Below, one piece after another: positions 770 through 19,681 of a stretch of DNA of 64,000 nt. Made by a program: the position numbers and the translations under genes. The notes under the pieces were generated by a model. It searched no databases and was not told where the DNA came from. It was given only the letters and a program-made list of their open reading frames with translations. The stretch comes from a virus. Location of the stretch: IMG/VR virus record IMGVR_UViG_3300037069_001724, positions 1 to 64,000 of that record; one strand, given 5' to 3'. Positions within the stretch are counted from its first letter, which is position 1. Each line of letters opens with the position of its first letter.

Positions 770-1413
770 TTCTTGTTCTCCTTATTTAGTTTAACGTCAG
801 CGAACGCTGGCACTACCGTACCCTCACCGAGAGTAAAGGCGCGAAGACCGAACGCCCGACGAAGTCCCATTCTAGGCGGCATCTTACCACCGAGCTTGAC
901 TGGTCTCACGTCGTAGTCACCATTCGGTTTCAGCAGTAGTTTTGAACCCTTCTTGGGCACATGTCTGGACCTCACATGCTTGTGAGATTTCAATGGTTCA
1001 GTTCCCTCATTACGAGAGAACCGTGTTCCTCGCATATGTGCAATCTGCGCGTGGCGAATGTTAAAGCTGAAGGCCGCCGGCCTTAAGCCCTGATCCCAGT
1101 TTATCAGGGCGCACTGCGCACTCCTGGGTGTCAACGCCATGTAGCGCAGGCGCCTCACGGGGTCGCTCCATCTGATGGTCTGTAGATCCACTGTCACTCG
1201 ACTTGCCCCCGGTATCGAGTCCTCGACGGCATTCCCGATGGCGCAGTGACCAGAGTTATTCCTGATTGCGTCCTCGAAATGCTGGTCAGTGACCTTGACA
1301 CGACGACCAAGGTTTCTAGTGATAGTTCTCGTACCGTTGAAACCATAACTCTTGGTCTGGTTCCCGACTGGCGGTGCCTTGGTCTTGGTCTTGGAAGTTT
1401 TGATCTTAGTCAT
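766..1413 (-). CDS. Conserved-looking hypothetical protein, 215 aa
   Basis: A basic protein with a Lys/Thr-rich N-terminus (residues 1-15) and a compact central segment holding HCAIGNAV near residue 56. A second Cys lies near residue 110, and the His/Arg/Lys-rich C-terminal third could bind nucleic acid. The segment around HCAIGNA looks like a conserved phage family, but I cannot name it. ATG start with GAGAGGAT upstream. Confidence 0.6.
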   Translation of the reverse strand: MTKIKTSKTKTKAPPVGNQTKSYGFNGTRTITRNLGRRVKVTDQHFEDAIRNNSGHCAIGNAVEDSIPGASRVTVDLQTIRWSDPVRRLRYMALTPRSAQCALINWDQGLRPAAFSFNIRHAQIAHMRGTRFSRNEGTEPLKSHKHVRSRHVPKKGSKLLLKPNGDYDVRPVKLGGKMPPRMGLRRAFGLRAFTLGEGTVVPAFADVKLNKENKK

Positions 1414-1461
1414 TTATCCTCTCCTTCTCTCGATGCGGGCCACGATCCAGCCCTAGGTGAT

Positions 1462-1974
1462 TTAGTCTGGATTGAATCTTAGCGTCTCTTTATTCCACGA
1501 CGGTGGATTACCGAATCGCCGTACCTCGAAGATTGATCTGTTGGTCAGGCGACTCAGTTCCCTCGCGTCCACTGTTGCCAGCGCCTTGGTCTTGTATCTT
1601 CTCCACCTGTGTCGGTCGTCACTCTCTGGGAGCCATCGGCCGGTTTTCAACTTTTGCTCCCATATTCCCCACATTATCTCATTGGTGTCTGGGTCACGTA
1701 TCTCCTTTCTGCGGTCGTCCATCAGATTTTCGTTGTGCCACTGATGGTCATCGATCAGCCACGACTTGAACACCTCGGCCTTGACCATCGCGAGTTTCGC
1801 CGCCTGTCCTACGGTGAGCTTGCCTTGTCTATAGAAGTCTAGCACCAGCTCCCTTGACCAAGCCACGCTCGGCTCGTACTTTTCCTTCCTGTTGCTCGGT
1901 CTGGGAGCGCCGTTTTGTCTAGCAATCAGGATATCGAGTGCCTCGTCCAGTGTCTCGGCGCGCGTCCTTATCAA
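1462..1974 (-). CDS. Hypothetical protein with HTH-like segment
   Basis: About 170 residues. The frame is open far upstream through the methyltransferase gene, but the sequence becomes protein-like only from the TTG at 1974, preceded by AAGG, which I chose as start. The segment LTVGQAAKLAMVKAEVFKSWL (about residues 49-69) has the spacing of a helix-turn-helix, as in small regulators. The C-terminal part is Trp- and Arg-rich. No family assigned. The start is uncertain because no ATG or GTG is available downstream of the neighbouring stop at 2019. Confidence 0.5.
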   Translation of the reverse strand: MIRTRAETLDEALDILIARQNGAPRPSNRKEKYEPSVAWSRELVLDFYRQGKLTVGQAAKLAMVKAEVFKSWLIDDHQWHNENLMDDRRKEIRDPDTNEIMWGIWEQKLKTGRWLPESDDRHRWRRYKTKALATVDARELSRLTNRSIFEVRRFGNPPSWNKETLRFNPD

Positions 1975-2018
1975 GTGCCTTGGCGAACCACCGACGACTC
2001 CACCCTTACCCCTATATC

Positions 2019-2630
2019 TCACTTCTTGTCCCTCTCGATGCGGGCCACGATCCAGCCCTCGTTGAATATGCCCACGGTGTCGATCACGCTGAAGCCCAGC
2101 CGGTTGACCAGAGCCCAGAATTTCTTGGCGTCGTGGGTCGCGGTGTTCGACTTGGCGACATACTTCTCGCCGAGCCGTATCGTGAGGATCACCGAGTGTC
2201 TGGTGACCCTGCACATCTCCTCGAGGACGCTGCGCATGGCGATGTCGTCGATCAGGTCGAGGAAGCGCACGCACACCGTAGCGTCCACCGACTTGTCGTC
2301 CAGGTCTGTGAACTCGGCGTCTCCGACCACCAGCTTCACCGGACCCTTCGGCCATCGCTTCTTCAGGTTGAAGCGCGCGAACTTGAGCATGCTCTCGCTG
2401 ACGTCGATGCCGATGACTGACTTGACGCCCAGCTTTCGATACGTCGTGATGAACCTGCCGGTCCCCATCGGGCAGTCCAGCACGACGCTCCTGGTGCTGG
2501 CCACGTCGCGAAGCAGCTTCTCGACGGCGACGTTCTCCTCGTCCCATCGCTGCTGCTTCGTGCGCACTTCCTCGTAGGTCTCGGCCTTGCGGCCGTGGTA
2601 CTTCTTTCTGGTCTGTGCGATACTAACCAC
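2019..2630 (-). CDS. Class I SAM-dependent methyltransferase
   Basis: A protein of 203 residues with a Rossmann-fold methyltransferase core. SAM-binding motif I is VVLDCPMGTGRF (residues 49-60), and GIDVSESML (74-82) carries the acidic residue (Asp76) that would contact the ribose. This matches the Methyltransf_11/25 type. The substrate cannot be told; no DNA-methylase catalytic motif (NPPY or PC) is visible, so a small molecule, protein or RNA target is as likely as DNA. I chose the GTG at 2630 because GGAGAG precedes it. It overlaps the upstream zinc-ribbon gene by 8 nt. Confidence 0.75.
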   Translation of the reverse strand: MVSIAQTRKKYHGRKAETYEEVRTKQQRWDEENVAVEKLLRDVASTRSVVLDCPMGTGRFITTYRKLGVKSVIGIDVSESMLKFARFNLKKRWPKGPVKLVVGDAEFTDLDDKSVDATVCVRFLDLIDDIAMRSVLEEMCRVTRHSVILTIRLGEKYVAKSNTATHDAKKFWALVNRLGFSVIDTVGIFNEGWIVARIERDKK

Positions 2631-2817
2631 GGCGCTCTCCCTGATACGGCCCGTCGACCACGACGTTGCATACCGTGCACACCTTGCCGGCCCATCGCTC
2701 GATGGACTGAATGACGGTGTTCTTGTGGCCGCAGTTCCGGTGCTGATACATGTACGGCGTCTTCCCGTGTCGCTTGTACGGCGACATTCGCTGCTCGCTT
2801 CGCTTGCGCTTGGACAT
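2623..2817 (-). CDS. Small basic zinc-ribbon-like protein, 64 aa
   Basis: A short basic protein beginning MSKRKRSEQR, with NCGHKN (about residues 28-33) and later VCTVCN (about 46-51). The CxH plus CxxC pairing is typical of a small zinc ribbon. A strong Shine-Dalgarno sequence (GAGGAGAAG) sits 4 nt before the ATG. It may bind nucleic acid or act as an adaptor; function unknown. Confidence 0.6.
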   Translation of the reverse strand: MSKRKRSEQRMSPYKRHGKTPYMYQHRNCGHKNTVIQSIERWAGKVCTVCNVVVDGPYQGERRG

Positions 2818-2879
2818 GATGCTTCTCCTCTTGCAGTGCATCCTTGGACGGTGCGCGCGGCACCGTCCCGTGGATACAC

Positions 2880-3308
2880 TCAGCGGTTCGCTCCGTACTT
2901 CCTCACGCCCTCGGCCACGTGTATCGGCCTCGGTCTGCGCAGATGGTTCGGTCTCGGCTTGCGCGCCCCCCGCTTCTCGGGCTTGCGGCGCAGACGCAGC
3001 TTGGAGTCGCCTGTCGGTGGGATGAGGCGGTGCTTTCCCGGATAGAACTTGGCGCCGCGATCGAAGGACACGATCTCGGTTCGGAGCGACTGGCTGGTCA
3101 GGTAGCGTATCCAGCACTCGTCCTTCTCTATGTAGACGCGGCCTACGTGTATTCGCGCGTGAATGCAGTTGGGCACCTCGCGCACGGCGGCGCGGGCGGC
3201 GGCGCACGCTCCTGGATCCTTGGTCTGGCCGCGCCGACAGTCCATCGGGCTGATGGTGATCCAGATGGACTTGGTCGCGTCGATGACTTGCTTGCCGTTG
3301 ATCTTCAC
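2880..3308 (-). CDS. Hypothetical basic protein, 142 aa
   Basis: GTG-started protein with four Cys in its first 80 residues (DCRRGQ near 24; further Cys near 35, 48 and 65) and a strongly basic C-terminal tail (residues 98-142, rich in Arg, Lys and Pro). The tail suggests nucleic-acid contact. No family recognised. Confidence 0.55.
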   Translation of the reverse strand: MKINGKQVIDATKSIWITISPMDCRRGQTKDPGACAAARAAVREVPNCIHARIHVGRVYIEKDECWIRYLTSQSLRTEIVSFDRGAKFYPGKHRLIPPTGDSKLRLRRKPEKRGARKPRPNHLRRPRPIHVAEGVRKYGANR

Positions 3309-9695: not shown

Positions 9696-11852
9696 TTATC
9701 GCTTTTTGGACCCGCTACGGGTAGCCGGGGCCGGTTTACCCTTTATATGGGCCGGCGCCGGGCGGCCAGATTGCTTTAGGGTTAAAGCGATATTTGGCGC
9801 CGCCAGCGCCGCCGCCTCGGCGTGGGAGTGCTTCGCGTTTCCCCAATTCGTGCCCCACTCTGCGTCGACGAGAAACGGAACGCCGCACTGATAGACCGTT
9901 CGCATGATCTCGACGACGCGCGCTCCCTTATCGGGGTCCGTCATCGAGAACGAGAGCTCGTCGTGCATCTGGAGCATGGGAACGAGTCCCTCCTCCCAGC
10001 ACTGCGCCATGGCCATCTTCATCTGCCGCGCGGCGCTGCCCTGGATCCTGCGGTTCATGGCCTTGTGCGTGTGACTGCGCTTGATGCGCTTGTTGAACCA
10101 CGGATGGTTCTCATCCGCCGCCCGCGCCTCCGCGTCAGCACGATGCGTCGGACCCATGGGCCGATGCTCGGACATACCGCGCTGCCACTCGCCCTTGTCC
10201 AGCCACGCCGCCTCCCACATGTCGAAGTGTGCGCGGGCACCGTCGATCATGCGAATGTAGCCTCGCTCCTGCGCCGCCTTCTCGCAGCGCTGACCGAACT
10301 CCCGCACGAACGGCAGCTTGGTGTCGTACTGCTTCATGATGGACTCTGCCTCCTCGAACTCCGCGCCTATCATGGTGGCGAACTTGCGCACGCCGGCCCC
10401 GAACGCCTTGGCGAAGTTGCAGTCCTTGGCCCTTCGACGTGTCAGCCCGGTCATCTGGACCACGAGGTTGTGAAAGTCGGTCTTAGGGTCGTTGCGATAC
10501 ATGTCCGCTGCCTCGACGGCGCGGGCGCATCCCGCCTCCTCGGCGTCGTTCACTATGTGTCGATACTCCTGCTGCGAGTAGTCCGGGCTGAACCAGAGCG
10601 TTCCCTCCTCCGGCTCGAACATGCTGCGGTACGCGGTCGCGATCTCACCTGTCAGTTTCCAGCTCTCGATGGGATCCGGCCGACTCGGGGCCTGCTGAAG
10701 CGGCGGATCGGCGTACGACAGGCGCTGACTTCGCGTGCCACCCTCCTCCGTGCGAAACTGGTTGATGGACGCGTGCACTCTGCCGCGATGCGTGAAATCC
10801 ATGATGTACGCCTTCACGAACTTCTCGGCCGCCTCGTGACACTGCTTCGCCTCCGCTATCATCAGCGGGAGCCAGTGCTCGGCCGCGCGCATCCAGTCCG
10901 CCTCGAAGCTGGCCTTGGCGCTGCCCTCCTCGCCCTTCATGTTGTACGGCACCTTCTCAATGTCGAACACACTGATCAGCCACCGGCTCGACCGTATCTC
11001 TTCCATTCCGACAGGCATCTTGAGGCGGCTGGTGAGCTCGGCCAGCGCCGCGTCCCTGCGCGCGTGCAGCCACTTTCGCAGCTTCGCGGCCTGATCCACG
11101 TTGACCCTGATGCCGGTGCGCCGCATCTGGTGGATCAGCGGAACCAGACGCATCTCGGTTCGGTACGCCTCCGTCAGCCTCTGCTCCTCCATCTCCGGGC
11201 GCAGACTGTCCATCAGCAGCAGCGTGCTGACAGGGTCCTGCTGACCGTAGATGCCGGCGTACCGCGCCGGTAGTCGCGCGATGTTGGCCACCGCGTCGTT
11301 CGCCGAGAAGCCGTAGACATTCGCCGCCTCGATCAGTGCAGCCTTGTCCTTCCCCTCCACCCCCCGCCATCGGCACGTCGCGTCGAGGCTGTTGTCCAGC
11401 CGGTTCTCGTCCACCATGAACGCGGCGCACGACGCGTCGTCGATCTTGGGCGGGGGGAGGACACCGAGGTCGGTCTGGAGCCAGCCGATGTCGTAGCCGG
11501 CGTTGAAGAACACGACGCTGCACGTCGCGAACAGATCGCGGAGCCACTCGGCCACGCGATCCTTGTCGAAGTTCTCCGTCTCGGGATGCCTGATCGGCAC
11601 GTACATGCGCCCGATGTCCGCGCCCTGACGCCACGCCACGCCGACGCCGGCCACGTAGCCGGAGCCGAAGGCCCATCCGGGGCCGACACCCCTCAGCAGA
11701 CCGAGGTCCCTAGTCTCCGTGTCCACCGCTATCTCGCCCGCGCGCCGCAGATCCGGCAGCTCGGTCGGCGGCGTCCAGTCGCTGTCCGGTGTTATCAGCG
11801 GGATCTGATCCGGGTTCAGCCTCGTGGCGCGCGGGCGGATTATCCTTGGCAT
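9696..11852 (-). CDS. Family A DNA polymerase with 3'-5' exonuclease domain
   Basis: A replicative polymerase of 718 residues. Exonuclease motifs: VDTET (Asp44, Glu46), NAGYD (Asp121) and YGQQD (Tyr202, Asp206), so proofreading should be intact. Polymerase motif A is DYSQQEYR (Asp424), motif B RRRAKDCNFAKAFG (Arg472, Lys476, Phe480), motif C MHDE (630-632 for HDE). Phe480 takes the position that makes family A enzymes discriminate against ddNTPs. There is no 5'-3' exonuclease domain, as usual in phages. The last 40 residues are a Lys/Pro/Ala tail. It is the last gene of the modification/replication operon; its ATG directly follows the upstream stop. Confidence 0.95.
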   Translation of the reverse strand: MPRIIRPRATRLNPDQIPLITPDSDWTPPTELPDLRRAGEIAVDTETRDLGLLRGVGPGWAFGSGYVAGVGVAWRQGADIGRMYVPIRHPETENFDKDRVAEWLRDLFATCSVVFFNAGYDIGWLQTDLGVLPPPKIDDASCAAFMVDENRLDNSLDATCRWRGVEGKDKAALIEAANVYGFSANDAVANIARLPARYAGIYGQQDPVSTLLLMDSLRPEMEEQRLTEAYRTEMRLVPLIHQMRRTGIRVNVDQAAKLRKWLHARRDAALAELTSRLKMPVGMEEIRSSRWLISVFDIEKVPYNMKGEEGSAKASFEADWMRAAEHWLPLMIAEAKQCHEAAEKFVKAYIMDFTHRGRVHASINQFRTEEGGTRSQRLSYADPPLQQAPSRPDPIESWKLTGEIATAYRSMFEPEEGTLWFSPDYSQQEYRHIVNDAEEAGCARAVEAADMYRNDPKTDFHNLVVQMTGLTRRRAKDCNFAKAFGAGVRKFATMIGAEFEEAESIMKQYDTKLPFVREFGQRCEKAAQERGYIRMIDGARAHFDMWEAAWLDKGEWQRGMSEHRPMGPTHRADAEARAADENHPWFNKRIKRSHTHKAMNRRIQGSAARQMKMAMAQCWEEGLVPMLQMHDELSFSMTDPDKGARVVEIMRTVYQCGVPFLVDAEWGTNWGNAKHSHAEAAALAAPNIALTLKQSGRPAPAHIKGKPAPATRSGSKKR

Positions 11853-12650
11853 CTACTCCATCCCCGTCCACGCGACGAAGTCGTCTCCTATGACATACTT
11901 GCCGCTGCTCTCGATCCAGCGATACATCTCGCGTGCCCACGGCGGCTGCTCGTCGTGCTCCTTGGCGTTCATCTCGCGCTTGAGGCAGACGTAGTTCTCG
12001 CGTAGCTCGCTCGGCACCGCGCCCATCTTGATGACATAGAATGCGCCGCTCTCGCGATACTTGCCGACGAGACATCGGGGTATCTCCACGGTCTTAGGAA
12101 CAACGGTGTCCAGCACGAACGTGTTGGACTGTCCCAGGCGATGCCAGTACATGTTCCACTGCTCCACGGTCACGTTGCCCGCCAGCCACTCGCGGTCGGC
12201 GAGATACGGGTGATGACTCTCGTGGTGTCCACCGTCCTCCGGCGTGCCGGGTCGGTAGTCGTGCACCTTACCGTCGATCCTCACGTGATCGAAGTGCGGC
12301 CCTATGGTCCTGACGCCGTCGGCCTTCTGTCGGGCTACTCTCTCGACAATCTCCTGCGACATCATCTCGGCCTCGACCAGCAGCAGATACCGACGAAGAT
12401 CCCTGACCTCCGCCAGCATGGTTCCGTCGGCACCGTCAGGGGCCGCCGCTATGTGCGCGAAGATGTCGTACTGCGCACTGCCGCCGGCGATCATGCTCTC
12501 CATGCGGTCCCACTTGCGCGCCAGCATCATGAAGGCACCGACACCGCCGCGCTTCTTCCAGCTACCCTGATACGTTTTCTCTCTCATCTCGACGAACGCT
12601 ATGTCCTCCTCGCTCACTATCCCGAGATATTTCATGTGGTCCATGTTCAT
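11853..12650 (-). CDS. Phage protein with Nmad/DUF1599-like N-terminal segment
   Basis: A protein of 265 residues. The segment around residues 24-55 (TYQGSWKKRGGVGAF..LARKWDRMES) resembles the GDSWKK-F-G..RLSDKxxR pattern of nucleotide-modification-associated and DUF1599-type domains, helical domains found beside base-modifying enzymes. The middle holds a His-rich segment (GHHESHHPY, about 141-149). The assignment rests on a short match and on context, since it lies between the HD hydrolase and the polymerase. The start at 12650 has a full AGGAGGG site, although it overlaps the HD gene by 89 nt. Confidence 0.5.
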   Translation of the reverse strand: MNMDHMKYLGIVSEEDIAFVEMREKTYQGSWKKRGGVGAFMMLARKWDRMESMIAGGSAQYDIFAHIAAAPDGADGTMLAEVRDLRRYLLLVEAEMMSQEIVERVARQKADGVRTIGPHFDHVRIDGKVHDYRPGTPEDGGHHESHHPYLADREWLAGNVTVEQWNMYWHRLGQSNTFVLDTVVPKTVEIPRCLVGKYRESGAFYVIKMGAVPSELRENYVCLKREMNAKEHDEQPPWAREMYRWIESSGKYVIGDDFVAWTGME

Positions 12651-13173
12651 CGTAACCCTCCTGTTGCTGTCGCCTGTCGCAGTACCGCTTGACAGCGGCC
12701 TGAGTGGTGTCGTCCATGGTGTCGCAGATGGCGCCCGCCGCCTGTATCATGCGCAGCGCAACGAGCTGACCGTACTTGTTGCCTAGCGCGAGCTCGTGAA
12801 GTCCCCACTCCCACATCTCGATGTACTCGCACATCTTGAAGAAGCGGTGGTCGGCATAGTCGAGCGTGATGCGCCGAGGAACGCCCCACTGTTCGGTCAT
12901 CTTGGCGTGTATCTGGCTCTCGAGGATCTCCATCCGGTCCTTGAGCACCTGATCGTTCTTCTTGCCGGGATACGGGATGTCGCCACCCATCTCGCCGACG
13001 TCGTGCGTCACGGCGTGCACCAGCAGCCGACGGCTCACGTCCGGCCGCACCGCGAGCATGATGCGCATGATTTGAGCCGAATGTTCACCGACTGATTGAT
13101 CTCGAGTGCGAGGCCAAGTATGAAACCTAGTTATTTGCAGGGCAACTCGAGGATCATGTGTAGGATCTATCAC
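12562..13173 (-). CDS. HD-domain phosphohydrolase (YfbR-like)
   Basis: A protein of 203 residues with HD-domain ligands: a His in SVGEHSAQI (about 33-41), HD in AVTHDVGEMGG (about 60-70) and a later conserved Asp/His in LDYADHRFF. The layout resembles YfbR-type deoxynucleoside 5'-monophosphatases, so hydrolysis of a dNMP or modified nucleotide is likely. Next to a ThyA-like enzyme, it could remove dTMP or recycle analogues; that is inference. The GTG start overlaps the ThyA-like stop. The last 30 residues are unlike the domain and overlap the next gene. Confidence 0.7.
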   Translation of the reverse strand: MIDPTHDPRVALQITRFHTWPRTRDQSVGEHSAQIMRIMLAVRPDVSRRLLVHAVTHDVGEMGGDIPYPGKKNDQVLKDRMEILESQIHAKMTEQWGVPRRITLDYADHRFFKMCEYIEMWEWGLHELALGNKYGQLVALRMIQAAGAICDTMDDTTQAAVKRYCDRRQQQEGYDEHGPHEISRDSERGGHSVRRDERENVSG

Positions 13174-14231
13174 CTGCGATGCCTCCCTATCCAGCCCATT
13201 GCCGCGCGGCGCCAGTCGTCGGCCTCGACCTGCCGCACGCGGGTCACGGCCATGTCCCACCAACCCGCGCGCCGCGCCTTGTTGGCCATGCACATGGGCG
13301 CCGCCACGCGGTCGAACCATCTGTTGTTATACGTCGGCGTGGTCATGTCACTAAGTCCAGCGGCGTGCCACCGCATGAAGTTCGACAGGTCCTCGTCCCA
13401 GTGATAGAAGCTGTCTCCGATCGGCAGCGGAACTACGAGCTCGTCGCGATACGGGTCATCCATCATTGGAGGGATCTCATCGACCAGTGGCAGAAACACG
13501 TCGTCGTAGGCGTGATAGTTGTTCGAGAGCTGGTACATCTTGCCCACGCCGACCCCGATGCGACCGGCGAGATACTCCTGTAGAAAGCTGAAGTGCACGG
13601 CGTTGGCGCCGTAGGCTCCCCACACGATGTCGTTGCTGCGACACATGACCGTCAGGTCCAGGACGTACTTGCGCGTTGGATGCTCGGAGTCCACGTGACC
13701 GATGTCGCGGTCGTAGTCCTCGCGAACGCGCAGATAGACGTGCGTGTTGCAGGGGCGATCCCTCCAGTCGCCGGTGAGATCTTGCTCTCCAACTCTGCCA
13801 GACAACTGATGCCGCGCGTCCCACATTTGGATCACTGCTTGTCTATCGTCGCGATTACTGCGCAGCCTCGTCACGACCTCGTCCAGTTGATCAATGCCGA
13901 GGGCGCTGCGCCAGCGGTGCCCGTAGGCACCGTGGATCACGCCGTCGTCGGCGTATCGCTTGCTGAACGTGGCCACGTAGGCGTCCAGCATCTTGGCGTC
14001 GTTCTGCCCGCTCAGCATCCAGAGACACTCGAACAGGTGAAAGAACGGATTGGCATCACGCGCTGGATCGAACAGAACACGCTGCGTTGAACTGTCGTAG
14101 ATCGACATGACAGGGCAGTCCATCACGGTCACTGGTCCGTTGCGGCTGTCGCTCTTGCGCCCGTACTTCCTGAGCATCAGCATGCCGTTATGATACAGAT
14201 CGTTGACGTTGGTTCCCAGTAGTGTGATCAA
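13170..14231 (-). CDS. Thymidylate synthase-like enzyme (ThyA or dUMP hydroxymethylase)
   Basis: A protein of 353 residues of the ThyA/dNMP hydroxymethylase superfamily. The catalytic Cys is in RPCNTHVY (Cys161); the usual following His is Asn162. Phosphate and pyrimidine residues appear as CRSND (Arg198-Asp201), YGAN (Asn210) and HAY (His240, Tyr242). Asn210 matches the residue that selects uracil over cytosine, arguing for dUMP as substrate. ThyA makes dTMP; phage relatives make 5-hydroxymethyl-dUMP, the first step toward hypermodified thymines. Which of the two cannot be settled by eye. I chose the TTG at 14231, which overlaps the upstream TGA and follows GAGGAAG. Confidence 0.8.
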   Translation of the reverse strand: MITLLGTNVNDLYHNGMLMLRKYGRKSDSRNGPVTVMDCPVMSIYDSSTQRVLFDPARDANPFFHLFECLWMLSGQNDAKMLDAYVATFSKRYADDGVIHGAYGHRWRSALGIDQLDEVVTRLRSNRDDRQAVIQMWDARHQLSGRVGEQDLTGDWRDRPCNTHVYLRVREDYDRDIGHVDSEHPTRKYVLDLTVMCRSNDIVWGAYGANAVHFSFLQEYLAGRIGVGVGKMYQLSNNYHAYDDVFLPLVDEIPPMMDDPYRDELVVPLPIGDSFYHWDEDLSNFMRWHAAGLSDMTTPTYNNRWFDRVAAPMCMANKARRAGWWDMAVTRVRQVEADDWRRAAMGWIGRHRR

Positions 14232-14656
14232 TGCTTCCTCCTGCGCAGTAAGTCGTTGACTCCCTCGGCCATCCGACCAAAGAACTCCCTCGAGTCCTTC
14301 TGTTTCTCCGGCGTCAGGTCGTTGTACATCTGATACTTGACGCGAAGACCGTCGAGTAGTCTCTTCTCGATGCCGGCGATGTGACGCTCCGACTCCCAGA
14401 GCGCCTCCTGGCTGCCTAGCTCGATGGCCGGCGCCTCCTCGCTCATGAAGATTGTCATGCACGACAGGATCAGTTCGTGCATCACCAGCTTCGACGCGCT
14501 CAGGCACAGCGACTGCTCCATGCACAGTTTGAACATGATGTTCGATGTGGTGGCAGCCACGCCTATGACACGCGACAGCGCGTGGTTTCTCGTGTTCTCG
14601 TCCTCGAAGCATCCGCATCCTGGCTCCGGGATCACGTCGATATCAAACTTTGTCAT
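14228..14656 (-). CDS. Hypothetical protein in modification operon, 142 aa
   Basis: N-terminal CGCFEDE (about 14-20), then a helical, moderately hydrophobic middle (residues 30-70, with three Cys) and a charged helical C-terminus. No motif recognised. It overlaps both neighbours by a few bases, so it belongs to the operon of the UDG-like and ThyA-like enzymes. Confidence 0.55.
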   Translation of the reverse strand: MTKFDIDVIPEPGCGCFEDENTRNHALSRVIGVAATTSNIMFKLCMEQSLCLSASKLVMHELILSCMTIFMSEEAPAIELGSQEALWESERHIAGIEKRLLDGLRVKYQMYNDLTPEKQKDSREFFGRMAEGVNDLLRRRKH

Positions 14657-15114
14657 CAGCCAACCTCCTCCTTGTGATAAGCCGCGTAGAGCTCCTCGAG
14701 AAGCAGGCCCACGGCCTTCCTGTTCTCAGAACCATTATACCATCTATTGCGGCCACTCGGATGAGGTACTTGTCGCCACGTACTCCCACCGATGTCCTGC
14801 GGATGGAGCAGCAGCGGGGGGTGGCAGAAGGCGCGGCGCACCTCCTCGCCGAGCAGAACTATTGTGCGGCGCGATCCCCAGAACTCTGCGTAGAACAGGT
14901 CGGCGGACTTGCGCGCCGTGTCCCGGTCCCAGTCCCCTACGACGAGGTTGCGTCGCTCGAACGTATCGAGGTAGTTCTGTCGTCGCAGGTCCGGGCGCCG
15001 CTCGCGCAGCATCTCGAAGATGCGGTGCCCGGTGCAGCCCGGCGGATACGGGAACAGCGCGTGCTCCGGTCGAACCGACAGAGGGTTCTGCATTCCGATG
15101 AGAACTGGTTTCAT
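14656..15114 (-). CDS. Uracil-DNA-glycosylase-fold protein
   Basis: A small protein (152 residues) with UDG-superfamily features. Residues 4-12 (VLIGMQNPL) are the first strand and loop, IVLLGEEV (85-92) a later strand, and VPHPSGRNRWYN (116-127) the HPSG..N loop that closes on the base. The usual GQDPYH-type catalytic Asp is not obvious, so it may bind or process a modified base rather than excise uracil. Phages with altered thymine often carry UDG relatives. ATG at 15114 overlaps the kinase stop. Confidence 0.65.
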   Translation of the reverse strand: MKPVLIGMQNPLSVRPEHALFPYPPGCTGHRIFEMLRERRPDLRRQNYLDTFERRNLVVGDWDRDTARKSADLFYAEFWGSRRTIVLLGEEVRRAFCHPPLLLHPQDIGGSTWRQVPHPSGRNRWYNGSENRKAVGLLLEELYAAYHKEEVG

Positions 15115-15671
15115 AGCTTCAGCCACCACTTGATCGCGTTGAAGCACGCCTCGCGGTCGCCCGCGAACACGTTCGGCACTCGCAGCGCGCGGAACGTCTT
15201 CACGTTGCTGTCCACCTTCCGCATCGTCTTCTCGATGCTGGCGGCGGCTATCTTGTGGCCGCGCGCCCGCACGCCCTCGACGCACTGCTCCAGCGGCGTG
15301 GTAAGGTGCACGATGCGCGCGTCGTGACCCTCCCGCACGAGCTGCATGAAGTTTGTGGTGCCGTCGCCCATGTTCATCCCCTCGTACAGCACGTCCATGG
15401 CGCCGGTGGTGATGGACGTGGACGCCACCGTGCGAATGGTGTTGTAGACGTCGTTCAGGTCGCCGATGGTGTCGATGCCGCCGTTCGCAATCTGGTAGTG
15501 ACCGAGAACCACCAGAATGGCGCCCGTCGGCGGGTCCCGCGTGAACACGCTCATGATGGGCTTCTTGCGCTTCGGCGCCATCACGTCCTGCTGACCGGGA
15601 TACATGGCCATGATGCGCCGGGCGAGATGCGACTTACCGCTGCCGCTAGTCCCTCGGATGCTGATGATCAT
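15111..15671 (-). CDS. P-loop kinase, candidate 5-hydroxymethyl-dU DNA kinase
   Basis: A protein of 186 residues. Walker A is GTSGSGKS (7-14) directly after the first strand (MIISIR), and the rest has the size of a nucleoside/nucleotide kinase core. The organisation resembles 5-hmdU DNA kinases of phages with hypermodified thymine, which phosphorylate hydroxymethyluracil already in DNA. Adenylate- or polynucleotide-type kinase is the alternative. Context (ThyA-like, radical SAM, HMUDK-helical-like gene) favours the DNA kinase. The ATG at 15671 shares its A with the radical-SAM stop. Confidence 0.6.
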   Translation of the reverse strand: MIISIRGTSGSGKSHLARRIMAMYPGQQDVMAPKRKKPIMSVFTRDPPTGAILVVLGHYQIANGGIDTIGDLNDVYNTIRTVASTSITTGAMDVLYEGMNMGDGTTNFMQLVREGHDARIVHLTTPLEQCVEGVRARGHKIAAASIEKTMRKVDSNVKTFRALRVPNVFAGDREACFNAIKWWLKL

Positions 15672-16702
15672 CACCGCTCCTCCCACGGTCTGAGAACCGG
15701 CTTCGTCTGCGGCGACAGCGCGTTGACGCGCGCGATCTCCTCGCGTGTCTGCGCGTCCGGCCTGCGCAGCGTTCCGCTACCGTCGTAGTTCGGCAGAATG
15801 CCGACCCTGAAGCTACGATGATCGCAGCCCTTGCACGGCCTGAGCATGTCGCGTCGACCGGCATACAGTGCCTCGCGCGCCGCCCCGAACGCCGGACCAT
15901 TCCAGATGGCCTCGATGCCGTCGGTCAGTATGTTGCCGCAGTGATACTCACCTCGCCAGTCGTTGCAGCACACGGCCACCGATCCGTCCCAGTGAATGGC
16001 GAGCTGACGGAACGGAAGTGCACAACGCTTGCCCTGCATCCTGTCGTTCGGGGGCGCCCCCGCTCCGGCGTGGTTCGACAGTCGATTGTGATTGCCCTTC
16101 TTGTCAGTCTTCTCGGTCCACGCTATGTCCTTGATGCGAACGAGCATTCTGGTCCCCGGCTTGTATCGAGCGTGTGGATTGCCGCGCGAGTCGTACGGAT
16201 ACTCGTAGAAGTTGAACTGCTGACCACCGTGTGCGCTGTACTTCTCGCCAGAAACGAATTGAAGATTACCCTGCATCGCGGTCAGAACCTTCGGAACATA
16301 CTCGATGTTCTGGTAGTGATCGAGGCCGAGGATCGTCAGCCCGGCGTCGAACAGCGCGTTGACATTGGCCACCGCACCCGGCTTTCGCAGCAGTCCACCG
16401 GCGTTCGTCAGCATCAGCTTGGTCGAGCGCGGTCTGTGCTCGTGCGTGATCGCCACCATGCCGGCGTAGTTCGGATGCTGCGTCGGGTCGCCGCGCATGG
16501 CGAAGCCGATGCGCGAGTTCCAGCCCAGCTCGGCCACCTGCTCCATCGCGCTGCGCATCGTGGCCTCGGCCATGAACTTGTAGCCGTGGCCCTGCTTCTC
16601 CTGAATGCCAGCGATCCCGCAGAACGAGCATCGGAGATTACATCCCATGCTCAGCTCGAACGAGAGACTGTTCGGCGGCTCCTGCCTTCTGTACTTTCGC
16701 AT
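15671..16702 (-). CDS. Radical SAM enzyme with SPASM/twitch-like C-terminus
   Basis: A protein of 343 residues. The [4Fe-4S] motif is CNLRCSFC (Cys21, 25, 28). A C-terminal Cys set (Cys227, 245, 246, 255, 290, 293; in CALPF, VCCND, HCGN and CKGC) fits an auxiliary cluster of SPASM or twitch type. Such enzymes perform radical chemistry on peptides, sugars or nucleotides. In some hypermodified-thymine phages a radical SAM enzyme rearranges an amino-acid-modified base. Here it sits between kinase and glycosyltransferase-like genes with 1-3 nt overlaps, so a role in base modification is the best inference; substrate unknown. Confidence 0.8.
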   Translation of the reverse strand: MRKYRRQEPPNSLSFELSMGCNLRCSFCGIAGIQEKQGHGYKFMAEATMRSAMEQVAELGWNSRIGFAMRGDPTQHPNYAGMVAITHEHRPRSTKLMLTNAGGLLRKPGAVANVNALFDAGLTILGLDHYQNIEYVPKVLTAMQGNLQFVSGEKYSAHGGQQFNFYEYPYDSRGNPHARYKPGTRMLVRIKDIAWTEKTDKKGNHNRLSNHAGAGAPPNDRMQGKRCALPFRQLAIHWDGSVAVCCNDWRGEYHCGNILTDGIEAIWNGPAFGAAREALYAGRRDMLRPCKGCDHRSFRVGILPNYDGSGTLRRPDAQTREEIARVNALSPQTKPVLRPWEER

Positions 16703-17691
16703 CACGCCATCTCCCTCTCCAGCTTGACCTGCGCCGACTTCATCTGCTCCAGCAGCAGCCCGTGATAATTGCCGCGTATCCACTGCCTGCGCTGCTCCAG
16801 GCCGTGCTTGTCCCTGTCCACCATGAACTTGGCCACGTCGCGGGCCTTCTCCACGACCCACGGCGCGGGATCGTAGCCCGCCTTGCGCAGCATGGGACCG
16901 CACTCCTGCTGAAACACCATGGGCAGGCCGGCGCTCAGCATCTCGTAGAACCGATTGGCCGGGCTGTGAAAGTTCTCGCTGGATTTGCGGTCCTCGATGT
17001 AGAGGCCGAGACCGTTGGTGCCCAGCACGTTGTAGAAGTTGTCCAGTATCGGTCCGACGTGCGTGCACTTGGGATATCGCTCGGCGAACTGCTTCGCCGG
17101 GCTGCTGATGGTGGTCGCCACCGTCGGCTCCGCGAAGTAGCGGTCGAACAGCGGCACGCGACTGGACTTGCCGGAGCCGTCGCGATACGACCCGTAGTAC
17201 AGCAGCGTCTTGCTCGCGCTGCTGCCGCGCCGCTGCGTGATCCTCTTCTCGCTGAAGTCCTTGTCGAAGGTCAGCATGTTCCAGTTCACGTACGAGCTGC
17301 CCTTTCGCTGAGACCACTCCTCGCACGTCGACCAGAAGTCCATGTGCGGCTTGCCGGCCTCGTGCCTCTCGCGGAACGCCGCGCGGAACGGACTGATGCC
17401 CTCGCTCTCGATCTTCGGCGGAATGATGCTGTAGTCGTTCTGTATCCAGACGATGCGACGCGCGGTCTTCACCAGCGCCGCGAGTTCCGGCAGACACTTG
17501 CAGAAGCCATACGCCCCGTTGACGATGTAGAGAACGTCCAGCTCGGCACCGTCGTACTGTCGAATATTCTGGTAGTCGACCTCCGGCAGCTTGAGATGCG
17601 CCGCCACGTACTTGAGAATGCGAATACTCGCGACCATGCTGTTGTCGCTGATCCGCACGAACGAGAACACGATGCTATTGGCTCTTGGCAT
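16702..17691 (-). CDS. Glycosyltransferase-like protein (GT-B type)
   Basis: A protein of 329 residues. The C-terminal segment NFHSPANRFYEMLSAGLPM (about 240-258), followed by Gly-Pro-rich GPMLRKAG, matches the donor-binding helix region of GT-B glycosyltransferases (N-R-F-E-x-x-x-x-G-x-P). The N-terminal half has strand/turn patterns such as RIVWIQNDY that fit a Rossmann domain. In this operon a modified base in DNA is a plausible acceptor, but virion or cell-surface glycosylation cannot be excluded. ATG at 17691 is preferred over the upstream TTG because GGGAG lies at normal spacing. Confidence 0.6.
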   Translation of the reverse strand: MPRANSIVFSFVRISDNSMVASIRILKYVAAHLKLPEVDYQNIRQYDGAELDVLYIVNGAYGFCKCLPELAALVKTARRIVWIQNDYSIIPPKIESEGISPFRAAFRERHEAGKPHMDFWSTCEEWSQRKGSSYVNWNMLTFDKDFSEKRITQRRGSSASKTLLYYGSYRDGSGKSSRVPLFDRYFAEPTVATTISSPAKQFAERYPKCTHVGPILDNFYNVLGTNGLGLYIEDRKSSENFHSPANRFYEMLSAGLPMVFQQECGPMLRKAGYDPAPWVVEKARDVAKFMVDRDKHGLEQRRQWIRGNYHGLLLEQMKSAQVKLEREMA

Positions 17692-17911
17692 TTTCAATCT
17701 CCCTCAGGCGTGTCAGAACGCCGCGTTTCCTGTCTAGCTCGCCTCTGACGAACTCGCGTATCTTGGCTAGGCGATTGTAGCGCTCCTCCGCCTCGACCAT
17801 CGTCTCGCGCGCTCTCTGCTCCTCTCTCATCACGGCGCTGGCCAAGCCGTTCAGGCCGTCGATCTCCTCCACGATAGCCCTGATCGGGTTGAATGGTGTC
17901 GGCTCTGTCAT
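17675..17911 (-). CDS. Small coiled-coil protein, 78 aa
   Basis: Starts MTEPTPFNP at 17911 and is almost entirely charged helix from residue 25 on (EEQRARETM.., LDRKRGVLTRL..), a probable coiled coil. It overlaps the glycosyltransferase gene by 17 nt. No family recognised; possible subunit or scaffold for neighbours. Confidence 0.55.
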   Translation of the reverse strand: MTEPTPFNPIRAIVEEIDGLNGLASAVMREEQRARETMVEAEERYNRLAKIREFVRGELDRKRGVLTRLREIENAKSQ

Positions 17912-18864
17912 CGGTAGACCCCTCTCGGCTTGCCCTCGCCAAGCCTGACGCGCTCGTACTTGTCGAACTCGCAGAGCGTATGCTCCACCTCGCGCATTTC
18001 CCACGCCGGCCATTTATTCTCAATTTCCCTGCGATGTCTCTCGTCAAACGAACCATCGCCGCACGAGGCCGTATCTGCATGTGGCCACATTCTAGCATCC
18101 CTCGAGATCTCTAGCAACGCGCGCATCTCTTCTATGAGACCATCCCTGCCGACAGTGTGATCCTTCACCTTGCGCTCGTGCACGCGGTTCAACCCACGCC
18201 GCGCCCCCGGTCCCGGGTTCGCCCAAGTCAATATATCGGGGGCGCCTCCGAGAAGCGTGGTGTGACGCAGGTCGGTCACGATCTCGTACGAGTGGAACGG
18301 CCCGAAGTAGTCGTTACGCTTGAACCAGTCCCAGGCAATCTCCAGTGAGGAGTGTCCGTCCATCTTACTCATGTAGTTTGCCTCGACCTGCCAGCCAGAC
18401 TTCTTATTGAACGTGTCGATGATCTTGAGCATCCCGTCCAGCTTGTTCATTCCCGGCGGACTGCTGATGATGTAGGCCCCGGTGACGTATGGTCCGTTCC
18501 CGCAGTTCGCCAGTATCGCACGCTTGAGAACAGCCACCTTGCCCGTCTCCATGTACTGAGCCCACGCGCTCTCGTACTCGATGTCGGCTTGGTTCCAGAT
18601 GGCCTCGCCCACCGATATGCGGTTCAGCAGCCGAAAGACCACGGTCGCCAGCATCACCTCGTCGGTGTTACGCATCGGATCGCGGACGTTCTTCCTGAAC
18701 CAGACGGTTGTCTTGTCTAATTCTCTATAGATATTTGTAAAGCGATATTGGTTGAGAATTGGATCTTTAGACCATGGTCTTGGTTTCCCCGCTGTTCTAT
18801 CAAGATATATTTGATGACGCGCCCGCGCGTACCGGAAGAAAGCATTGGTGCCACGACTGGTCAT
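17908..18864 (-). CDS. 5-hmdU DNA kinase helical-domain / aGPT-PPlase-like protein
   Basis: A protein of 318 residues. The N-terminal block RARHQIYLDRTAG (14-26), PWSKDPIL (30-37) and RFTNIYRELD (41-50) is the pattern I know from the helical domain linked to 5-hydroxymethyluracil DNA kinases and alpha-glutamyl/putrescinyl-thymine enzymes of hypermodified-DNA phages. The rest is helical, with ALLEISRDARMWPH near 250-263. It may recognise the modified base or DNA for the separate kinase at 15111-15671, or be a transferase. The family match is by eye, but the context is strongly supportive. The ATG at 18864 follows GGAGATTGAA. Confidence 0.65.
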   Translation of the reverse strand: MTSRGTNAFFRYARARHQIYLDRTAGKPRPWSKDPILNQYRFTNIYRELDKTTVWFRKNVRDPMRNTDEVMLATVVFRLLNRISVGEAIWNQADIEYESAWAQYMETGKVAVLKRAILANCGNGPYVTGAYIISSPPGMNKLDGMLKIIDTFNKKSGWQVEANYMSKMDGHSSLEIAWDWFKRNDYFGPFHSYEIVTDLRHTTLLGGAPDILTWANPGPGARRGLNRVHERKVKDHTVGRDGLIEEMRALLEISRDARMWPHADTASCGDGSFDERHRREIENKWPAWEMREVEHTLCEFDKYERVRLGEGKPRGVYR

Positions 18865-19139
18865 TTCAATCTCCACACGCCGGGCACCACCAAGCGAAAC
18901 AGATCTTCTTGTCCGGTGTACCACTCCTGCTCACGGCTGTGACGCTGCAACGTGCATCGAACGGTGCTGGTCGCTGTCTTCGGCCAACTGCGACCCTTCG
19001 ACTTGCGAAGCTTCTCCATCTTATCGTATATAGATGGAAGGCTAATCTCCTTGCCAGTCTTGAGAACAGTGACCAAGTCAGCAGTCCAGTCGCCACTAAC
19101 AGTGTCGACCGTTTCTTCACCAGTGAACATGTCTCTCAT
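18861..19139 (-). CDS. Winged-helix-like DNA-binding protein, 92 aa
   Basis: Residues 35-92 (IYDKMEKLR..TVRCTLQRHSREQEWYTGQEDLF..GVWRL) match the small winged-helix domain found at the ends of restriction enzymes and related phage proteins (pattern VRxxLQxHSxxSxxYxGxxDLFxxxxxGxWxL). It probably binds DNA, perhaps sensing base modification. ATG at 19139 overlaps the exonuclease stop (ATGA). Confidence 0.55.
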   Translation of the reverse strand: MRDMFTGEETVDTVSGDWTADLVTVLKTGKEISLPSIYDKMEKLRKSKGRSWPKTATSTVRCTLQRHSREQEWYTGQEDLFRLVVPGVWRLK

Positions 19140-19681
19140 TTTCCCCTCCTCAGTCTCTTGTGTGCCATCTGGACGCACTTCGCCTGATGCTCCGCGTCGT
19201 CCAGGGCGTTGTGGTAGGTTCCTATTCTCTTGATCGCGTTGTAGTTCAGTCCCGCCATGGCGTACGCGGTGCGAGTGTCCCGCGCATTGTAGAACTTCCA
19301 CGGCGGCGACCTGCCCACGGCCCGACAGGCCGCGTCCCACAGAACGCCGTCGAAGTTGCTGCCCTGCGACCACACGAAGAAGCCGGCATTCTTGTTGAAC
19401 CAGCGCTCGAAGTCCCGAACCGCCGTGTCGAGGCTGACGGGCTTCAGTAGCAACGACTCCTGCGCCGCTGGTGACTGCTTCGCCCACCAGTCCAGCGTAC
19501 CAAGATCCATCGACAGGCCGGCCTCCGCGCTCGAGACGTGCGTGATGTTTCGGTAGAACTTCGACCCCACCGCGTCGGAGTCGGCGTCGAACATGACGGC
19601 CCCGACGCTGCGGACGATGGAGCCGACCGACGTTCCGAACGTCTCGAGATCTATCATGCAGTCGTTGCAGTCTACAACCAT
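19136..19681 (-). CDS. DnaQ-like 3'-5' exonuclease (Rv2179c-like)
   Basis: A DEDD-family exonuclease of 181 residues. Motif I is IDLETFGT (Asp10, Glu12), a middle Asp lies in GSNFDGVLWD, and the last motif is HNALDDAEHQ (His and Asp near 161-166). The pattern TLDWWAKQS and PWKFYNARDTRT matches the Rv2179c-like/exoribonuclease T family. It may trim RNA or DNA ends during replication or recombination. It overlaps the helicase gene by 10 nt. Confidence 0.8.
   Translation of the reverse strand: MVVDCNDCMIDLETFGTSVGSIVRSVGAVMFDADSDAVGSKFYRNITHVSSAEAGLSMDLGTLDWWAKQSPAAQESLLLKPVSLDTAVRDFERWFNKNAGFFVWSQGSNFDGVLWDAACRAVGRSPPWKFYNARDTRTAYAMAGLNYNAIKRIGTYHNALDDAEHQAKCVQMAHKRLRRGK

Follow-up and report, generated by a model that had tools for sequence, protein, structure and literature searches.

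The window analysed here is the first 64,000 bases of the 71,520-base IMG/VR record IMGVR_UViG_3300037069_001724, in which portal, major head, tape-measure and baseplate genes are present, and its minus strand carries a candidate operon for thymine hypermodification. Ten open reading frames (ORFs) follow one another from position 18864 down to 11853, and the gene of a PolA-type DNA polymerase (9696-11852, minus strand) comes directly after them. A first-pass annotation of this DNA had located the genes rightly on that strand, abutting or overlapping, but it counted seven successive genes where ten ORFs are found; the overlaps of a few bases that it described throughout are seen between most neighbours (1-17 bases), but the HD phosphohydrolase gene and the 265-residue ORF after it share 89 bases. 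The proteins of the operon were assigned to families by searches of Pfam, PHROGs, NCBIfam and the PDB. Chance adjacency of the genes was ruled out by synteny with cultured phages and by recurrence in IMG/VR.

The operon is real, and in sequence and gene order its core is orthologous to the thymine-hypermodification clusters of the Pseudomonas phages M6 and PaMx11. In such pathways 5-hydroxymethyl-deoxyuridine (hmdU) is the common intermediate, which, once incorporated into DNA, is phosphorylated and undergoes further modification (PMC6449724), and Yuavirus relatives have been described with a putative deoxyuridylate hydroxymethyltransferase and an hmdU kinase (PMC11946847). There is good support for an operon in the window that hypermodifies thymine from 5-hydroxymethyl-dUMP onwards: its genes match those of M6 and PaMx11 one to one as orthologues and in order, and the residues of its ThyA-superfamily enzyme (13170-14231) agree. 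This protein is 38-40% identical to M6 gp58 and PaMx11 gp51, matches phrog_5131 (4e-87) and PF00303 (3.5e-17), and retains the equivalents of E. coli ThyA Cys146, Asp169 and Asn177. In the ThyA family the retained Asn goes with uracil rather than cytosine as the substrate, and loss of Trp80 is compatible with a hydroxymethyl rather than a methyl product. The enzyme is probably a dUMP hydroxymethylase; an ordinary thymidylate synthase was rejected on the loss of E. coli Trp80, on an M6-type synthase as the nearest family and on a CMP 5-hydroxymethylase as the best match in the PDB.

The HD, UDG-fold and polymerase proteins likewise have counterparts in M6 or PaMx11. The YfbR-like HD phosphohydrolase (12562-13173; Pfam 3e-5, below the cut-off) matches phrog_7076, a dATP triphosphohydrolase family, at 9e-7 and is 28% identical to PaMx11 gp52; its probable function is to clear competing deoxynucleoside tri- or monophosphates, and dTTPase activity has been reported in PhiW-14 infection (PMC5977210). 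The UDG-superfamily-like protein (14656-15114) is a homologue of M6 gp48 (31% identity, 8e-12) and matches phrog_12275 at 1e-18; its match to the UDG family of Pfam is insignificant (0.19), and M6 gp48 itself matches PF03167 below the cut-off only. The polymerase is 28-29% identical to those of M6, PaMx11 and Sonora (up to 4e-83) and lies in the same syntenic block. The first-pass calls of a ThyA-like enzyme on the route to 5-hydroxymethyl-dUMP, an HD hydrolase, a UDG-fold protein and a DNA polymerase at the operon end are all borne out by these matches. With the M6/YuA-type phages, which make 5-(2-aminoethyl)-dU (5-NedU), the window thus shares the ThyA-like, HD, UDG-fold, hmdU kinase, PF18723 and PolA proteins in similar order, and with PaMx11 (N-alpha-GlyT or 5-NmdU) the kinase, the PF18723 helical protein, ThyA, HD and PolA.

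The modifying enzymes are different. M6 encodes an amino acid:DNA transferase (ADDT; gp51, PF18724), a pyridoxal phosphate-type enzyme (gp52) and the radical SAM protein gp53; PaMx11 has an ADDT/PUGT (the glycinyltransferase gp46), a flavin adenine dinucleotide enzyme and an acetyltransferase, none of which was found in the window, and no glycosyltransferase (GT) or SPASM enzyme was recognised in the PaMx11 cluster. The ADDT was not found in the whole 71.5-kb record although the positive controls M6, PaMx11 and Sonora were matched, and a copy hidden elsewhere in the genome was therefore rejected. Nor was there any sign of the aminotransferases or acyltransferases of the known pathways, and on both counts the earlier suggestion that the final base may differ is sustained. 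Instead, the window contains two other genes. The protein encoded at 16702-17691 (E_GT) has no Pfam match at E<=1, so it falls outside the T4 alpha- and beta-glucosyltransferase and TAGT (TET-associated glycosyltransferase) sequence families; its AlphaFold2 model, with a predicted local distance difference test (pLDDT) score of 81, was matched by Foldseek to Gtf3 (3qkw, 1.6e-7) and to the T4 alpha-glucosyltransferase:DNA complex (1y8z, 1.1e-5), and the matched T4 structures are bound to DNA containing 5-hydroxymethyluracil. By its modelled fold E_GT is a GT-B glycosyltransferase, as the first-pass annotation had proposed, and homologues at 63% and 40% identity occur in IMG/VR clusters. Judged from gene content, the glycosyltransferase likely replaces the amino-acid transferase rather than being an extra.

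The second gene (15671-16702) encodes a Twitch/SPASM radical SAM enzyme, and here too the earlier call is supported by the SPASM match (1.9e-14). Cysteines C21, C25 and C28 of its CX3CX2C motif and C227, C245, C246, C290 and C293 are invariant in 12 homologues, and the motif together with four Twitch cysteines aligns to BtrN, the radical SAM dehydrogenase of butirosin biosynthesis. BtrN is also the best PDB match of the family profile at 1.9e-19, the next match being 13 orders of magnitude weaker at 8e-6. In its own pathway BtrN turns an alcohol of an aminocyclitol into a ketone, with an auxiliary cluster bound by four cysteines (PMC9012708). An M6-type radical SAM protein was rejected on the absence of any match to M6 gp53; the first-pass statement that families of this kind are known from phages with hypermodified thymine is right for the core shared with M6 and PaMx11 but not for this enzyme. 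Because it has no match to gp53 and its relatives sit with glycosyltransferases, we infer that the enzyme tailors the sugar of a glycosylated base. Ketone formation would be the simplest reaction in view of the similarity to BtrN. The enzyme could instead decarboxylate a sugar acid, because the radical SAM enzyme BlsE is described as acting on cytosylglucuronic acid (PMC3715490). The proposed substrate differs from that of BtrN in being linked to DNA, and the likeness is one of motif and profile.

The genomic context of this radical SAM family was surveyed. At 1e-5 it matched none of 50,697 phage records (a relaxed limit gave weak matches of 2e-3 and 0.1), and it occurs at 69 loci in IMG/VR, the last few of them remote; 54 were left after removal of near-duplicates, and 42 of these have 3 kb of sequence on both sides. 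Glycosyltransferases were recognised with profiles of four families (TAGT-like GT-A, GT_E, GT_B2 and GT_B3) within 3 kb at 39 of the 42 loci, no locus has one only farther away, and two of the three exceptions have a sub-threshold TAGT match next door. The same 42 loci carry ThyA in 32 cases, the helical protein in 31, the kinase in two and the ADDT in none; ADDT is likewise absent from all 50 records of the radical SAM relatives, which, like IMG/VR records in general, are often fragments. The type of glycosyltransferase switches at least 17 times on the radical SAM tree. A TET/JBP dioxygenase with no ThyA is found in eight of the 50 records, which are grouped on the tree, and ThyA is found in 32, none of them with TET (Fisher 8e-5, ignoring relatedness). 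Since the family occurs with either TET or ThyA and never with both, the loci appear to share a hydroxymethyl-pyrimidine route and a glycosyltransferase. Since the same family is present in ThyA and TET phages, nearly always beside a glycosyltransferase, the enzyme would act on the sugar or the glycosylated hydroxymethyl group, not on a feature specific to thymine. Contigs of bacterial genomes gave one convincing match, in Actinomadura rayongensis (L167, NZ_WUTW01000008.1), with a GT_B3-type gene nearby; this locus is perhaps a prophage.

The first gene of the operon (17908-18864) encodes a protein matching PF18723 at 6e-44 and 36-45% identical to its counterparts in M6 (gp55), PaMx11 (gp50; at 45% among the nearest) and Sonora, which confirms its proposed resemblance to the family named in Pfam as the 5-hmdU DNA kinase, helical domain (HMUDK_hel), with alpha-GPT-PPlase clade 1 as the older name. 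Its AlphaFold2 model (pLDDT 94) gave weak best folds, namely the glycinyltransferase PUGT/gp46 and helix-hairpin-helix DNA glycosylases (AlkA/OGG), and neither a PDB sequence match nor a significant fold match was obtained. A survey of 81 loci picked out by this helical protein (80 and the window) found the ADDT at 12, all 12 also with the kinase, and a glycosyltransferase at 22; ADDT and glycosyltransferase were together at none of the 81 (P 0.016, ignoring relatedness), and 38 had neither of the two and no kinase. The protein had been taken earlier as evidence of a kinase step, and this use fails: PF18723 is not a kinase marker, because in related phages it is usually found without any kinase. 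At the 38 loci, for example L104, L105 and L130, the gene is followed directly by ThyA and polymerase genes with no kinase, ADDT or recognised glycosyltransferase nearby; they are possibly further types of hmdU modification or plain hmdU phages. Among the 50 radical SAM records the helical protein is present in 28 of the 32 with ThyA and in none of the eight with TET, and so its presence goes with the hmdU route rather than with the radical SAM enzyme. As this link is to the route and not to a particular modifier, a role as a subunit recognising hmdU in DNA is inferred for it.

The P-loop kinase (15111-15671) is a homologue of 5-hmdU DNA kinases. Of the cultured relatives tested the nearest is PaMx11 gp49 (34% identity, 5e-31); AAA_33 is matched at 1e-8, and the Walker A motif GTSGSGKS and a conserved G-Y...GG.D.I block align with M6 gp54, itself a match to the 5-hmdU DNA kinase family. 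The kinase assignment made at first pass holds through gp49, but the match to PF18748, the Pfam family of these kinases, is below the cut-off (19.1 against 27 bits). The kinase profile matches three of the 50 radical SAM records, all in the clade of the window. The enzyme may phosphorylate either hmdU, as the acceptor of the glycosyltransferase, or the sugar, or it may carry out a second modification in parallel.

Taken together, the operon would make a glycosylated and radically tailored hmdU derivative in the DNA of a phage that is known as a sequence record only, and we give this reading a probability of roughly 0.6. In the proposed pathway the ThyA-like enzyme would make 5-hydroxymethyl-dUMP while the HD enzyme excludes competing nucleotides, as family membership and orthology suggest, and the phage polymerase would build hmdU into the DNA instead of some or all of the thymidine. 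The PF18723 protein would then recognise hmdU in DNA and present it to the modifying enzymes. The GT-B enzyme, acting in place of an M6-type ADDT, would attach a sugar either directly to the hydroxymethyl group or to a phosphate that the kinase had put on it, a step proposed because the ADDT is absent, a glycosyltransferase is present and its modelled fold fits. In the last and least certain step the BtrN-like enzyme would tailor the DNA-linked sugar, most simply by turning a hydroxyl group into a ketone. Hypermodified bases normally shield viral DNA from bacterial defences, and the product would be expected to protect the DNA from nucleases.

Several points weigh against this reading. The TM-scores of E_GT to known GT-B enzymes are about 0.5, so its likeness to them is at fold level only, and the glycosyltransferase assignment is weak or below the cut-off in L056, L059, L060, L063 and L080. 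The similarity to BtrN spans the core and Twitch domains and not the substrate site, and relatives of BtrN include peptide modifiers and decarboxylases. A sugar put directly on hmdU would leave the kinase without a role, and among the radical SAM records the kinase is kept in the window's clade only. The loci are moreover related by descent, and the counts are not independent. A wider version can be put forward more tentatively, at somewhat less than even odds, in which a BtrN-type enzyme oxidises, or edits in some other radical reaction, the sugar on 5-hydroxymethylpyrimidines of ThyA or TET origin in intact DNA, as a widespread system of uncultured phages, and PF18723 is an adaptor to hmdU-DNA that kinases, glycosyltransferases and radical enzymes use in common.

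Three other explanations have to be considered. The operon could follow the classical amino-acid branch through a transferase that goes unrecognised: 5-phosphomethyl-dU would come from the kinase, an amine would be put in place of the phosphate by the helical protein or the product of some other ORF, the attached group would be rearranged by the radical SAM enzyme, as has been proposed for M6 gp53, and the glycosyltransferase would attach a sugar as a side reaction. A kinase homologue is indeed present, the best if weak fold match of the helical protein is PUGT/gp46, and the M6 cluster likewise has a radical SAM protein. We consider this branch unlikely, since M6 and PaMx11 have the helical protein plus a separate ADDT, the radical SAM family shows no match to gp53, its records lack the ADDT and nearly always have a glycosyltransferase adjacent, and most of them have no kinase anywhere. 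It is also improbable that phosphate forms part of the product, either with the kinase phosphorylating hmdU and the sugar placed on that phosphate to give a sugar-phosphodiester-methyl-dU, or with the added sugar being phosphorylated, and the radical SAM enzyme oxidising the sugar. It is in the GT_E clade alone that kinase and glycosyltransferase are found together, and a change of tailoring enzyme does not part them, but GT_E is also found without the kinase (L050, L070/L071), and a phosphate would be an unusual acceptor for a DNA glycosyltransferase.

Glycan and peptide biosynthesis often involves glycosyltransferases and SPASM proteins, and NCBIfam places the radical SAM enzyme in generic SPASM/Twitch subfamilies only, so the two proteins could have a glycan, peptide or surface structure of phage or host as their substrate and lie beside nucleotide genes without sharing their function. 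This is very improbable: both genes are inside the hmdU block and overlap its genes, the family tracks ThyA and helical-protein genes or TET genes across IMG/VR, and the glycosyltransferase types alternate beside the radical SAM gene in clusters without an M6-type ADDT.

The glycosylated and tailored hmdU reading is also supported by relatives. GT_E and the kinase are common to the window, L018, L020, L021, L087 and L089, and the ADDT was found in none of the four nearest-clade records (L020, L021, L087 and L089), while nine of nine expected positives were matched. L087 has a different radical SAM/SPASM protein at the place of the radical SAM gene (10292-11137, plus strand, SPASM 2e-7); a profile match of L087 to the window's family was rejected after a negative whole-record search and inspection. 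L089 has no radical SAM enzyme and carries a class I methyltransferase beside the kinase (11867-12448, plus strand, PF13649 2e-19), which possibly methylates the same base. GT_E, kinase, UDG and ThyA genes stay in L087 and L089 when the tailoring enzyme changes. In L076 a gene like UDP-glucose/GDP-mannose dehydrogenases (1079-1996, plus strand, PF00984 5e-19) lies between a TAGT-like glycosyltransferase and the radical SAM gene (1888-3006), and a uronic acid sugar on the DNA of that phage is therefore suggested. What these gene sets suggest is an hmdU core that stays the same while sugar and tailoring modules are exchanged around it. ORFs that look sulfotransferase-like by eye, with P-loop-like N-termini, lie beside the radical SAM gene in L034 (8292-8996, plus strand) and L062 (6131-6922, plus strand); they have no convincing Pfam or NCBIfam match.

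As in the TAGT and T4-type DNA glycosyltransferase systems, a sugar is predicted on a 5-hydroxymethylpyrimidine of phage DNA, and TET and TAGT-type genes are found with this radical SAM family too. The window would differ from those systems in taking its hmdU from a ThyA enzyme, in a distinct GT-B family and in an added radical SAM tailoring step. If the reading is correct, a sugar branch with radical tailoring would be added to thymine hypermodification, which the literature cited here describes for amino-acid- or amine-derived groups, and a radical SAM family acting on sugars bound to DNA would become available. As modular sets, these genes point to enzymes that could be tested for making reactive or shielded DNA bases. 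The name given to PF18723 in Pfam misleads annotation, as most relatives have the protein with no kinase nearby.

Three further ORFs complete the operon. A 78-residue protein, helical by eye, is encoded at 17675-17911 with overlapping start and stop codons; it is co-transcribed with its neighbours and matches no family above any cut-off. The 142-residue protein of 14228-14656 is preceded by an AGGAGG ribosome-binding site and has no Pfam or PHROG match. The 265-residue protein between the HD and polymerase genes (11853-12650) has a conserved position, its N-terminal half being 36% identical to an ORF at the same place in L006; it has no Pfam match, and Pfam at E<=1 gave nothing that bears out the label Nmad/DUF1599-like given earlier to the gene before the polymerase. 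Positions 19136-19681 of the minus strand, which lie upstream of the operon and are transcribed in the same direction, encode an Rv2179c-like 3'-5' exonuclease domain (PF16473, 2e-40).

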